Below are positions 30,515-35,700 of a stretch of 39,422 nucleotides of DNA, one piece after another (within the stretch, counting starts at the first letter, position 1; each line of letters starts with the position of its first letter). The position numbers were made by a program, and so were the translations under genes. The notes below the pieces were generated by a model. It did no database searches. It was not told the DNA's origin and worked only from the letters and a program-made list of their open reading frames with translations. This DNA is from Epibacterium ulvae (GTDB taxonomy: Bacteria > Pseudomonadota > Alphaproteobacteria > Rhodobacterales > Rhodobacteraceae), in assembly GCF_018678075.1 (NCBI RefSeq), contig NZ_JAHHIR010000006.1, positions 1-39,422 on the forward strand, read 5' to 3'.

Positions 30515-32329
30515 ATGACAGAGCTCTCGAAAATCCGAAACTTCTCCATCGTCGCCCATATTGACCATGGCAAATCCACCCTCGCCGACCGTCTGATCCA
30601 AGAGACGGGCACGGTGGAGGAACGTGATATGAAGGAACAACTGCTCGACAGTATGGACATCGAGCGTGAACGTGGGATTACCATCAAGGCAAATACAGTT
30701 AGAATTGACTATAAAGCCGACGATGGTGAGGACTATGTCCTGAACCTGATCGACACCCCCGGCCACGTCGATTTCGCCTATGAGGTCTCCCGCTCCATGC
30801 GTGCGGTTGAAGGCTCGCTTCTGGTGGTTGATTCCACCCAAGGGGTCGAGGCGCAGACATTGGCCAACGTCTATCAGGCGATTGAGGCCGATCATGAAGT
30901 CGTGCCGGTTCTGAACAAGATCGACTTGCCCGCCTCCGATTGTGACCGTGTGGCGGAGCAGATCGAAGATGTGATTGGCATCGATGCGACCGATGCGATC
31001 CAGGTCTCTGCCAAAACCGGGCAGGGGATCCGTGAGACGCTCGAAGCCGTAGTAAATAAACTGCCCGCGCCCCAAGGCACGCTGGACGCGCCGCTCAAAG
31101 CGATGCTGGTCGACAGCTGGTATGACGCCTATCTGGGTGTGATCGTTCTGGTGCGGATCATGGATGGTACCCTGAAAAAGGGCATGCGCGTCAAATTCAT
31201 GTCCAACGACACGCTACACCATGTGGACCGCGTAGGCGTATTCCGCCCCGAAATGCAGATGGTTGACGCGCTCGGGCCCGGCGAAATCGGCTTTCTGACC
31301 GCCTCGATCAAACAGGTGCGTGATACCCGAGTGGGCGACACCATCACCAATGACCGCAATGGCACGACCGAGGCACTGGACGGCTTTAAACCCGCACAGC
31401 CCGTGGTGTTCTGTGGCCTGTTCCCGGTCGACAGCTCCGAATTCGAAGACCTGCGCGACGCTATCGACAAACTGGCGCTGAACGACGCGTCATTTTCGTT
31501 TGAGATGGAAACCTCTGCCGCGCTTGGCTTTGGCTTCCGCTGTGGTTTCCTGGGACTGTTGCACCTCGAAGTGATCCGCGACCGGATTGAGCGTGAGTAT
31601 AACATCGAGCTGATCACCACCGCTCCATCGGTAATTTACCACATCTATATGAAGGGCAAGGAAAACCAGCCCGGCGAGATGATCGAGCTGCACAACCCCG
31701 CTGACATGCCCGACATGTCCAAGGTCGACCACCTCCAAGAACCCCGGATCAAGGCCACCATCATGGTGCCCGACGAATATCTCGGCGATGTGCTCAAGCT
31801 CTGCCAAGACCGTCGCGGCATTCAGGAAGACCTGACCTATGCCGGCACCCGCGCCATGGCGGTCTATGATCTGCCCCTGAACGAGGTGGTGTTTGACTTC
31901 TACGACCGTCTGAAATCTGTGACCAAGGGCTATGCCTCCTTTGACTACCAGATGATCGGCTACCGCGAAGACAATCTGGTCAAGATGTCGGTGCTGGTGA
32001 ACGACGAACCCGTCGATGCGCTCTCTACCATGGTCCACCGCGACCGCGCCGATATGCGGGGCCGCGCCATGTGTGAAAAGCTCAAGGATCTGATCCCGCG
32101 CCACATGTTCAAAATCCCGATCCAAGCGGCCATCGGCGGCAAGGTCATCGCGCGTGAGACACTTTCGGCCATGCGCAAAGACGTGACCGCCAAATGCTAC
32201 GGCGGCGACGCCACCCGGAAACGGAAGCTGCTGGACAAGCAGAAGGCGGGTAAGAAGAAGATGCGCCAGTTCGGCCGGGTTGATATCCCGCAGGAGGCGT
32301 TCATCTCTGCGTTGAAAATGGACGATTGA
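30515..32329 (+). CDS. lepA: Elongation factor 4 (LepA)
   Basis: The 604-aa translational GTPase has AHIDHGKST at 14-22, [20 protein letters not shown] at 80-87, NKIDLPA at 134-140 and the SAKTG motif. The LepA-specific C-terminal domain carries [37 protein letters not shown]. LepA back-translocates or aids 30S assembly on ribosomes. The length and C-terminus are normal, so the downstream insertion has not cut the gene. Its TGA stop directly abuts the TAA of the minus-strand cassette (32330). Confidence 0.98.
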
Positions 32330-33088
32330 TTAACCGAAGAGATCCAACTGTTTGGTTTCTTCAACCGGAAATATTCCGAGAAGTTGCCAAGTCTGGGGTC
32401 TCTTTTTTATGTTGCCCAGTGCAAGCACTAGACCCTTTTTGACGTAGTCGTCGCAGTACGTTTTTTCGAGATGTCTGAGCACGTCCTTCTCAGGCATACT
32501 TTGACGCAAGTTGAAGAAGGTTGCTGTAGTCTCCCAGTCCGCACATGTCTTATTATGTGGGCCATGCTCGTCATCGTAATGCAGCTTAAATTTGTAGGGA
32601 CATGGTTCATAGGCTGCAAGCTCCTCCTCGAGTAAAGAAAGTTGCATTGCTTGCTGGGCGAATTTTTCGCGGTTTGCTTCAATTTCAATTTTTGATAGCG
32701 CCTCCCACGAAAAGGAAACGTTTTGTGGTCGTATCAATGCAAGGGATTGCCCCTTTCTAACTGCCTCATTTTCCGAAGTGACAACGGCTCTTTGAATTAA
32801 ACTTGATTTCTCAAGAGGTTTTCTGACATTGCCTTGAATTTGGATGCTGTCCTCGTGAACGCGACAGCTTTCAGCCCTGCTATCGTCCCGGGGCTTGCTG
32901 TATTTGAATTGAACAATGTCCCACCTTTTAAAGGCCTTTTCTCCAGATAGGCGCCGAAAGCGAATCGGGAATAACCTTTTCCAGCTACCATCCTCTTGTA
33001 GGCCAGCGCAGCATACAGTTTCTGAGTGCTTCTTACTTGGCTGTGGAGATGCTTTTACGAGGATTGTAACGCGGGATGGTGTTGCCAT
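32330..33088 (-). CDS. DUF488-associated protein with C-terminal clamp-binding motif
   Basis: The 252-aa protein starts at 33088 and overlaps the DUF488 gene by 56 bases, so the pair is cotranscribed and probably coupled. The N-terminal half is beta-rich: VTILVKASPQPSKKHSETVCCAGL, RLFPIRFRRL, RWDIVQFKYSKP, then RAESCRVHEDSIQI. I read this as a possible OB-type barrel, but I cannot prove the fold. The C-terminal half has Cys residues (C163, C182, C212) with His nearby, and the sequence ends KQLDLFG. QLDLF at 247-251 is the canonical beta-sliding-clamp-binding pentapeptide. The gene is much A+T-richer than lepA. It may be a DNA-transaction or conflict-system component; function is inferred. Confidence 0.72.
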   Translation of the reverse strand: MATPSRVTILVKASPQPSKKHSETVCCAGLQEDGSWKRLFPIRFRRLSGEKAFKRWDIVQFKYSKPRDDSRAESCRVHEDSIQIQGNVRKPLEKSSLIQRAVVTSENEAVRKGQSLALIRPQNVSFSWEALSKIEIEANREKFAQQAMQLSLLEEELAAYEPCPYKFKLHYDDEHGPHNKTCADWETTATFFNLRQSMPEKDVLRHLEKTYCDDYVKKGLVLALGNIKKRPQTWQLLGIFPVEETKQLDLFG

Positions 33089-33551
33089 TCTGTAGGTATT
33101 GCTCGGCTCTGTCAGCCACGAGATTATATACTTCGAAGCCATTTCGGGAGGCTTCATCCGCGATATAAGACCTATGGCAATGGGTTGCGCTTCGTTCAAA
33201 ACACATCATGCAAGTTTTACGTGCATTTGCAACCTTTAGGAGTTTTTTCAGTTCCTCTTGCGCCTCTTGCGTACCGAGATGGTTCAAATAGATTTTTTCA
33301 AACTGTTGAAAATCGCCCTTTTTCGCGGCTTCTCGGCCCGGCTTCGGGTCTCCCAGTGCCTTGTAGTGGCGATATTCTATCCCAACTTCGGCCAATCTTT
33401 CAGCAAGTTTGTTCTTCGAAAGCCCTTTTTTTCTCGACAAAGGCAGCTCTCGAACATCAGCAAGCACCTCAACGTTCAAAGCAATAAGTGTGGAAACTAA
33501 GTCTTCGACTGTAGAACCTTCATACCCAATGGTGAAAAGTTCGGTGCTCAT
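33033..33551 (-). CDS. DUF488 family protein
   Basis: The 172-aa protein has the DUF488 pattern from end to end: FTIGYEG near the start, DVRELPLSRKKGLSKNKL at 32-49, EYRHYKALGDPKPGR, and the signature CMMCFERSATHCHRSYIA with C114, C117, C125, H126 and R127. The family is widespread in bacteria with no established biochemistry; the conserved Cys/His/Arg set suggests catalysis or metal binding. The ATG has GGGAG 9 bases upstream. It is the first gene of a two-gene A+T-rich unit, with a possible operator in front (33589-33622). Confidence 0.88.
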   Translation of the reverse strand: MSTELFTIGYEGSTVEDLVSTLIALNVEVLADVRELPLSRKKGLSKNKLAERLAEVGIEYRHYKALGDPKPGREAAKKGDFQQFEKIYLNHLGTQEAQEELKKLLKVANARKTCMMCFERSATHCHRSYIADEASRNGFEVYNLVADRAEQYLQNGNTIPRYNPRKSISTAK

Positions 33552-34386: not shown

Positions 34387-34991
34387 GTGAAGAATTTACT
34401 GCTCGCCGCTGGATTGGCTCTTGCCTCTGCTTCCGCCGCGTCCGCTGCCAATTTTGTTGCAACCTTTGACAACCTCGGCTTTGATATTTTCGAAGGTCCA
34501 GATGCCTCCCTTGGAACCACGAATTTCCTGAACGGAACCCTGTCTTTCAATTCCAGTTCCAACCTGTTTTTGACCAAATCATCGAAGCAGACGTTTCCGG
34601 CGTTGTGACCGAAAATTTCGAACTGTCGGGCTTTGGCTTTGGCGGCGATGAGGGCGGCGACTTTGACTTTATCACCGGATTTACCCTGTCCGGGTTCGGC
34701 CCAAACGGCTCGGGCGGCGATCTGCAGCTTGATTTCGTGAGCTCCGATGTGAACCCATTTGCCAATGCCTCTGTCGGTTTCTCGTTTGCCGTGACTCCTG
34801 AAACAGGCATCGAATTCGCCCAAGACCTGGACGGAGATATCTTTGTCTCGCGCTTCAACGGTTCGGGTTCTGTCAGCTTCCAAGTTGTCGAAAGCTTTGA
34901 TGAGCCAGCGCCAGTGCCGTTGCCAGCCAGTGGCCTGCTGCTGATTGGTGCTCTGGGTGCCGCGGGGGCTCTGCGCAAGCGCAAGTCCTGA
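34387..34991 (+). pseudogene. VPLPA-CTERM surface protein, frameshifted
   Basis: The first frame gives a signal peptide (LLLAAGLALASASAASA|AN), then ATFDNLGFDIFEGPDASLGTTNFLNGTLSFNSSS, and stops at 34608. The second frame (from upstream of 34605) reads DQIIEADVSGVVTENFELSGFGFGGDEGGDFDF and ends VPLPASGLLLIGALGAAGALRKRKS, a complete VPLPA-CTERM anchor (VPLPA, helix, Arg/Lys tail). The frames join smoothly if one T is restored to the T5 run at 34567-34571, giving NLFFDQIIEADV. This is a single-base deletion or a sequencing error. Such proteins are sorted by an exosortase-type system and exposed on the envelope. Confidence 0.8.
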
Positions 34992-35015
34992 TCTTCAGAG
35001 GCTTTTCAAGATGAA

Positions 35016-35047
35016 GCGCGTTGCCTGCAAAGGGCGGCGTGCTTTTT
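35016..35047 (+). terminator. Terminator of the VPLPA-CTERM gene
   Basis: GCGCGTTGCC pairs with GGCGGCGTGC (three G-T pairs) around a 7-base loop, followed by five T residues at 35043-35047 and more T downstream. Confidence 0.75.
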
Positions 35048-35190
35048 CTTTGGGGGCGACCTATTGTACGGCGCGTGATTTGGCGCGCAGGCCATATGCC
35101 CGCCGCACCAAAGGGGATCGCGCTTTTCATACCTGCCGCACTGCTCTAAAGGGCGAAGGGACCAATTGCCCCAAGGAGTGCACGCCGCCC

Positions 35191-35700
35191 ATGACCTGTG
35201 ACCTCTGCGCCAGTGATGCGCCACTTGCCCCGTTTGCCGTAACCGGCGGTCCCGATGGGGCTGTGACGCAAATTTGTGCCACTTGCAGCGACCAGATCGC
35301 GAAGGAATTAGACCCCAACCACTGGCGCTGCCTTGCAACCGCGATGTGGAGCGAGACCCCAGCCGCGCAGGTTCTGTCAGCGCGGTTGCTGAAACGCCTC
35401 GGCGATCAGGACTGGGCGCGCGATCTGTCCGACCAGCTGTGGCTGGATGAAGAGACCCAGGCCTGGGTCGATGCGGTGCCCGCCGAGACGGCGCATAAAG
35501 ACAGCAACGGCGCGCCGTTGCACGCAGGGGATACGGTGGTTCTTGTCAAGGATCTGCCAGTCAAAGGCGCAGGCTTTACCGCCAAACGGGGGACGGCCGT
35601 GCGCAATATCTCTCTGGTTATGGACAACGCCGAACACATCGAAGGCCGCGTCGAAGGCCAGCGCATTGTAATATTAACCAAATATGTGAAACGAAAATGA
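35191..35700 (+). CDS. phnA: PhnA-domain zinc-ribbon protein
   Basis: From the ATG at 35191 the protein is 169 aa. Two Cys pairs, CDLC near the start and CATC near residue 30, form a zinc-ribbon. A middle helical region (HWRCLATAMWSETPAAQVLSARLLKRL) leads to the PhnA C-terminal domain: KDSNGAPLHAGDTVVLVKDLPVKGAGFTAKRGTAVRNISLV and HIEGRVEGQRIVILTKYVKRK. AAGGAG lies 12 bases upstream, a little long. PhnA is not a phosphonate hydrolase despite the name; its function in these bacteria is unclear. Confidence 0.9.
   Translation: MTCDLCASDAPLAPFAVTGGPDGAVTQICATCSDQIAKELDPNHWRCLATAMWSETPAAQVLSARLLKRLGDQDWARDLSDQLWLDEETQAWVDAVPAETAHKDSNGAPLHAGDTVVLVKDLPVKGAGFTAKRGTAVRNISLVMDNAEHIEGRVEGQRIVILTKYVKRK

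Follow-up and report, generated by a model that had tools for sequence, protein, structure and literature searches.

The partner protein encoded beside a DUF488 gene in Epibacterium ulvae ends in a sliding-clamp-binding motif that its relatives retain, and it carries a second motif of the same form in an internal loop. We consider it likely that this protein docks on the sliding clamp DnaN. With somewhat less confidence, we favor a model in which an OB-fold adaptor, equipped with a pair of clamp-docking peptides, would bring the DUF488 enzyme to the clamp and act against invaders. The family is already listed in PADLOC as PDC-M19; the clamp connection, drawn from sequence comparison, is what we add here.

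The window, meaning the whole 39,422-nucleotide stretch of DNA that we analyzed, holds the pair on its minus strand. The DUF488 enzyme gene (PADLOC PDC-M19A; 33033–33551, minus strand, 172 amino acids) was assigned from Pfam DUF488, the PADLOC profile PDLC04505, and an AF2 model. The partner gene (PADLOC PDC-M19B; 32330–33088, minus strand, 252 amino acids) encodes a predicted tandem OB-fold protein, as judged from its translation, profile matches, and AF2 model. With the ATG at 33088 as its start codon, the partner would begin 56 bases inside the DUF488 gene. The pair lies directly 3′ of lepA (30515–32329) and is convergent with it. Its G+C content is about 0.46–0.48, with about 0.55–0.63 on the lepA side and 0.49–0.63 on the opposite side, and it is present as a single copy in the source genome. 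The next frame past the pair (34605–34991) has a weak PEP-CTERM-like end that scores below the cut-off, and a further frame (34945–35700) encodes a PhnA/YjdM-domain protein.

The sequence-only reading had noted QLDLF at the very C-terminus of the partner, and translation bears this out. The frame ends in FPVEETKQLDLFG*, the last residues are ETKQLDLFG, and the predicted clamp-binding motif occupies residues 247–251 (32336–32350, minus strand), with one residue remaining after it. QLDLF fits the original beta-clamp consensus, QL[S/D]LF, as given in PMC9690074, as well as the revised form Q-phi-x-[L/M]-[F/L] with an aliphatic second residue, as given in PMC13254535.

A lone five-residue motif is weak and could be a chance match in a random C-terminus. 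We therefore weighed it against its homologs. The survey counted 181 loci, including places fetched twice such as L001 and L171; 173 have a full-length partner, and the 8 incomplete ones were excluded. There are 156 distinct partner proteins, of which 154 have a closed end and were aligned. Within the last 12 residues, 137 of these 154 distinct full-length relatives bear the motif in some form: QxxLF in 79, QxxLx[FLI] in 30, QxxLL in 22, and QxxL[IWFV] in 6, leaving 17 with none. The same stretch of 2,220 background ORFs from these loci (stop-to-stop frames of at least 200 amino acids, many of them not genes) holds QxxLF in no case and any form in 36. Shuffled tails of the relatives give QxxLF in 1.4% and any form in 12%, and 1,226 non-overlapping neighbor ORFs give 0 for QxxLF, 17 for any form, and 2 for the revised consensus. 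As a negative control from within these loci, 163 distinct DUF488 proteins were scored with a slightly narrower pattern, and 2 of them bear a motif at the C-terminus. At the level of sequence, the QLDLF tail is beyond chance, and the homolog survey, the shuffles, the background ORFs, and the DUF488 tails together rule out the random match, to which we attach next to no credence.

Nor is the result a product of redundancy, since a form is kept in 45 of 54 tails at less than 60% mutual identity and in 13 of 17 at less than 45% (these threshold counts, like the PIP counts below, omit L106, L110, and L138). The homolog alignment shows the motif kept while the surrounding residues vary, which speaks against random C-termini among the homologs and gives clamp docking good support at the level of sequence. 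On a FastTree tree of rows below 85% identity, built with the loop and tail columns removed and without the six rows L034, L106, L110, L133, L138, and L140, the 117 tips require at least 48 changes of tail sub-form, while 105 of them retain a motif; between presence and absence of a motif, at least 9 changes are needed on the same 117 rows. Such repeated swaps among accepted variants are the expected trace of selection for one binding pocket.

Several of the 17 motif-less tails are altered copies or narrowly miss the pattern: L140 and L133 carry the motif ahead of an extra stretch, L005 stops early, L003 ends in QLSLGRM, and L008 ends in EPTLF. Motif-bearing tail fragments are found in the incomplete loci L052, L087, L088, L090, L162, and L180, and also in L181, which is the same place as L180; in the incomplete L051 the tail is absent. 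Separately, a branch that includes L009, L010, L012, L070, and similar loci has a long DUF488 protein of about 300 amino acids with an additional N-terminal part, and the partners in L010, L012, and L070 end a few residues past YPP without the tail motif.

Gene order is tandem in 157 loci, with DUF488 upstream and mostly overlapping frames, and convergent in 15 (overlaps were counted on open frames with presumptive start codons). An artefact of gene overlap was considered and rejected: in the 157 tandem loci, the window included, the tail is clear of DUF488, so the motif is not imposed by an overlapping gene. At the convergent loci, the partner 3′ end meets the opposite-strand DUF488 gene, and the two 3′ ends overlap in 14 of 15.

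The tail had also been described as flexible. The AF2 model agrees to the extent that no helix or strand follows residue 241; flexibility itself is only an inference, since model confidence drops only slightly there (mean pLDDT 89 for residues 241–250 and 76 for residues 251–252).

The sequence-only reading named the tail motif alone and missed a second, internal clamp-like motif, which is kept in more relatives. In the window protein this is QLSLL at residues 149–153 (32630–32644, minus strand), which follows helix 133–148 and opens a loop assigned to residues 149–164 by DSSP on the model. The pattern Qxx[LMFI][FL] occurs in this loop in 147 of 154 relatives, and elsewhere in the same proteins in 152 of 29,847 18-residue windows. 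Q149 is kept in 150 of the 154. At position 151, 68 relatives have S, 50 have D, and 16 have N; L, F, or M stands at position 152 in 148, and F or L at position 153 in 153. The loop motif is retained in 48 of 54 relatives at less than 60% mutual identity and in 14 of 17 at less than 45%. Both motifs are present in 132 of the 154 relatives and neither in 2. Frequent loop forms include QGSFF, QGSLL, QGDLF, QSDLF, QADLF, and QGNLF; three relatives have exactly QADMF, and many loops have an Asp right after the motif. Distant bacterial relatives fit this picture. Loop and tail read QLDLF and QLSLF in a cyanobacterial relative, and an actinobacterial phage relative has QEVLF and QISLF. An Arthrobacter relative has QEDLF in the loop with the tail motif absent, and a Streptomyces relative has QMNIF with a tail that lacks the Q.

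A rival reading denies that DnaN is what these peptides bind: the tail would dock instead on DUF488, a phage clamp, or another protein with a similar cleft, and the loop motif would be a fold element. In the model, neither motif falls within a helix or strand, but both are modeled with fair confidence (about 88–91 for the loop), so neither is demonstrably disordered, and the loop motif could be retained for folding. The window protein satisfies the revised consensus in both tail and loop; among the relatives, only 59 of 154 do so in either place (36 tails and 32 loops), with 9 of 2,220 among background tails, and the second motif residue is G, T, S, or P in many. A motif picked by eye can mislead, as the RecB peptide QALRF illustrates: in PMC13254535, its binding was undetectable by NMR, while two-hybrid data hinted at a role. 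Against this reading, the allowed forms QxxLF, QxxLL, and QxxLx[FL], together with the preference for S or D, resemble known clamp motifs, and in one archaeal tail a PIP form takes the place of the bacterial motif. We regard it as distinctly improbable and retain docking on DnaN as the preferred interpretation.

The partner had been called a protein of unknown function, yet its kind is not simply unknown: we predict from the model that it is a tandem OB-fold protein. The PADLOC profile PDC-M19B (PDLC04508) matches residues 5–251 of 252 with an E-value of 2.6e-41, and all 79 rows of alignment A6, among them the window protein, match it too; this alignment took relatives at less than 72% identity from L013–L170 and without L034, L106, L133, L138, and L140. 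PHROG 25907 also matches (E 7.5e-30). No Pfam family matches the partner over its cut-off. The best is DuOB (PF22557, “dual OB-containing domain”) at 16.4 bits and an E-value of 0.0096, where the cut-off of 27 is not reached, which limits the claim to a likeness to tandem OB proteins. NCBIfam matches neither the partner nor the DUF488 protein. The AF2 model, made from 79 aligned sequences, has a pLDDT of 95.7 and a pTM of 0.91. Foldseek returned ten solved structures at an E-value of 0.001 or better (1.3e-4 to 1e-3); nine are CST, RPA, HIN-200, or telomere end-binding proteins, and the tenth is a repair-complex chain. TM-scores by query for these OB matches are only 0.22–0.34 and identities 8–12%, and a sequence search of solved structures gave only two chance-level matches. 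The core of the protein is large and well conserved, far beyond the two peptides. We consider DNA binding by the partner likely.

The 172-residue protein matches Pfam DUF488 (PF04343) at 104.8 bits, with a cut-off of 22.2. Its match to the PADLOC profile PDC-M19A (PDLC04505; E 4.5e-32) covers only profile positions 149–283 of 294; this is a short DUF488 form that matches the C-terminal part of the profile and is without the N-terminal part. The AF2 model (pLDDT 92.2) has an alpha/beta fold. A comparison of the model with the PDB gave no fold match at an E-value of 0.001 or better, the weak matches including a thermophilic PTP and a DUF442 phosphatase, and a search of solved structures by sequence found none. 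Fifteen positions are invariant among 72 aligned DUF488 proteins (alignment A9, comprising 71 of 77 DUF488 references and the window’s own). They include the stretch C117-x-E119 ... C125-H126-R127 (33171–33203, minus strand), a candidate active site, and also T7, G9, Y10, E11, D32, R34, G43, Y60, G67, and R73. We predict an alpha/beta enzyme with an invariant Cys/His/Arg site. In 2023, Burroughs and Aravind reportedly predicted DNA-end processing for the DUF488 clade; that the enzyme here acts on DNA ends is a tentative proposal. PMC9503650 proposes that DUF4326 acts on ADP-ribose derivatives by processing their terminal phosphates, and an archaeal ParB-DUF488-HTH fusion binds CTP (PMC12704722). 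At locus L054, DUF488 has an N-terminal HTH domain.

The two genes travel together. DUF488 adjoins the partner in 172 of 173 loci (some places counted twice), and at the sole exception, L110, the partner frame begins at base 76 of the locus. Tandem and convergent arrangements with the same partners argue for a joint function, and we think physical contact between the two proteins fairly likely. Among 14 further loci (L182–L195, comprising 12 plasmid or phage record stretches and 2 viral contigs), a DUF488 domain is nearby in 10 and absent nearby in L183, L192, L194, and L195.

So tight a two-gene arrangement would also suit a toxin–antitoxin system in which the partner plugs the clamp clefts and halts replication while DUF488 controls the partner. 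Clamp-directed toxins exist: SocB of Caulobacter binds the clamp via the usual motif (PMC9690074) and RipA of pneumococcus acts on the clamp (PMC12795458). Two motifs could, moreover, occupy both clefts of one ring. Set against this analogy are the invariant DUF488 positions, as expected for an active enzyme, a conserved partner core that extends far past the two peptides, and a gene order that varies by lineage. We judge the toxin–antitoxin explanation improbable and continue with clamp docking in the service of the enzyme.

To describe the surroundings of the pair, neighboring genes were called with a greedy ORF script, giving 75 chromosomal and 64 viral-contig immediate neighbors, of which 63 and 55 were scanned. 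Among the matches listed, the 63 chromosomal neighbors compared with Pfam and PADLOC are varied, with only single defense-type matches and no constant companion. Likewise, the 55 viral-contig neighbors compared with PHROGs have no constant companion among the matches listed, which include integrases (5 of 55), DNA methyltransferases (3), and ParB proteins (2). On the strength of these scans, a fixed third gene was rejected. On a Pseudomonas plasmid (L190:6455–7753), a gene annotated as HEPN/Toprim-associated adjoins the pair, a possible defense neighbor.

The partner family is widespread, spanning Proteobacteria, Actinobacteria, Cyanobacteria, and Archaea, and its distribution is patchy. A partner match was present in 12 of the 385 genomes sampled within the class, in 10 of 398 within the phylum, and in 10 of 295 within the family, with the window’s own genome counted each time. 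Relatives are found in 25 plasmid records, 7 Gordonia phage records, 78 viral-contig loci, and 171 places in the genome collection, the best 80 of which were used. E. coli genomes gave no DNA match by blastn. Searches of viral contigs with the window protein alone, or with the Sulfolobus and Natronococcus proteins alone, gave no confirmed relative, and searches of phages with the Natronococcus and Sulfolobus proteins returned Gordonia phages only.

At the lepA site, the pair is found in 0 of 19 relatives examined. One of the closest relatives, L198, has a different 233-amino-acid frame at the site. In L206, lepA is followed at about 190 bases by sequence that in the window is located about 1.7 kb past lepA. 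Elsewhere in the Rhodobacterales, the pair is convergent with lepA in L092, L093, L094, and L217, and L222 has a decayed partner at the site that still keeps its QGDLF tail. The pair or its remnant in these five loci indicates that the lepA site is either old in part of the family or repeatedly used.

The sliding clamp of archaea is PCNA. Its partners carry Qxx[I/L]xxFF, the PIP motif (PMC9690074). The archaeal relatives found comprise four distinct sequences from three lineages, all without the bacterial tail. The Natronococcus relative ends in ...SQPGLDSF, with a PIP-like QPGLDSF at its C-terminus; a random 12-residue tail of Natronococcus composition matches the PIP pattern in 0.9% of cases, and 2 of 154 bacterial tails match it. 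Two Sulfolobales plasmid proteins, 78% identical, have QATLDQY and QATLEQY at the loop place, both matching the PIP pattern, which is common anywhere in a shuffled protein (24–29%). Their tails, GIDKWLQ and GIDRWL, do not match the pattern used; they resemble the clamp tail of Dpo4. The Haloquadratum relative has no PIP match and has QAKLF in the loop. We regard these archaeal forms as suggestive, not as proof.

Domain variants accompany these relatives. On the Haloquadratum plasmid PL100 (L193:3980–6170), the partner relative lies beside a ParB-HTH-DUF488 fusion, and two annotated DNA methyltransferases are nearby. On two Sulfolobales plasmids (L182:1936–4358 and L184:1924–4352), the gene immediately before the partner is annotated as ParB and scores with the DUF488 profile as well (E about 1e-28 to 1e-27); in pSOG2, the third such plasmid, an integrase occupies this place. 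The gene after the partner in L182 and L184 encodes 163–168 amino acids, ends in NTKLF or NKTLF, looks nuclease-like by eye, and has no Pfam match over the cut-off. In viral contigs L194:704–2612 and L195:3944–6040, remote partner relatives adjoin DUF4326 proteins, not DUF488, and one of these DUF4326 proteins also matches ParB_N; the L195 relative ends in QGQLFTT and the L194 relative has no motif.

The sequence-only reading had suggested recruitment to replication forks or repair sites and a candidate anti-invader system. The two clamp-type tags support docking at the level of sequence and suggest a module working at replicating or damaged DNA. The anti-invader part draws indirect support from the PADLOC PDC-M19 match of both proteins, from patchiness, and from occurrence on plasmids and viral contigs. 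With the PADLOC candidate listing, mobility, and patchiness as its basis, a defense role for the pair is slightly favored. Alternatively, clamp docking may be real and the module may serve DNA repair, recombination, or the maintenance of mobile elements. The pair resides on plasmids and viral contigs, in some cases beside integrase, DNA methyltransferase, or ParB genes; DUF488 is found within a ParB-type protein in two Sulfolobales plasmids and Haloquadratum; the pair sits beside lepA at one site in some Rhodobacterales; and the modeled partner fold resembles RPA and CST. This role fits less well with a chromosomal distribution as patchy as that of accessory genes (10 of 295 family genomes), with the PADLOC status of both genes as candidate defense, and with the lack of a fixed third gene among the matches listed for the neighbors scanned. 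We consider it unlikely, and favor the clamp-recruited module directed against invaders.

Given these features, we propose that the two genes form a mobile module of the type that PADLOC lists as PDC-M19, in which a tandem OB-fold adaptor, probably DNA-binding, would use two peptides, one in the inter-domain loop and one in the C-terminal tail, to dock in the hydrophobic clefts of DnaN. Each of the two identical subunits of the sliding clamp offers one pocket (PMC13254535), so one partner could fill both pockets, or the motifs could serve in turn. The adaptor would carry the DUF488 enzyme to clamp-marked DNA, including forks, nicks, gaps, and the ends of replicating invaders. Recruited in this way, the enzyme would reach forks, gaps, and sites of repair, places rich in the DNA of phages and plasmids, and there it may process or modify DNA ends or nucleotides at the cost of phages or plasmids. 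A broader and more speculative hypothesis is that PDC-M19 represents clamp-docked immunity, in which the adaptor would hold a clamp ring on replicating DNA with its two peptides and place DUF488 there as a DNA-end-processing enzyme, replication itself exposes the invader, and archaeal members have swapped to PIP motifs. If loss of the motifs abolished DnaN binding and phage protection together, immunity, like repair, would be seen to use the sliding clamp as a recruiting platform, and the two short motifs offer a precise and cheap handle on module function.

Among known systems, PADLOC PDC-M19 is the closest: both proteins match its profiles A and B and the genes are adjacent, whereas the profiles have no description and clamp motifs appear in no description found. 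A literature search, with most subscription papers outside its scope, returned no paper with the word PDC-M19, no stated function for the pair, and no clamp link. Pfam DuOB and the DUF488/DUF4326 rhodanese-phosphatase-like conflict systems of Burroughs and Aravind share with the pair DUF488 in full and an OB-type fold with a weak DuOB match, the partner score falling below the curated cut-off; to our knowledge, no clamp docking is mentioned for them. The tandem OB proteins RPA, CST, and HIN-200 are the top Foldseek matches of the partner and differ from it in their low TM-scores and 8–12% identity. SocB and RipA resemble the pair as two-gene units with a clamp-directed protein; here, a conserved OB-type protein stands beside a conserved enzyme instead. 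The nearest parallels for the peptides themselves come from polymerases. DNA polymerase III alpha has an internal QADMF and a C-terminal QVELEF clamp motif (PMC13254535), and UmuC has an internal QLNLF followed by Asp (PMC3716654). The clamp motifs of the partner match theirs in form and in being dual or internal, and in many relatives the loop motif is followed by Asp as in UmuC, yet the partner is an unrelated protein without a polymerase domain.
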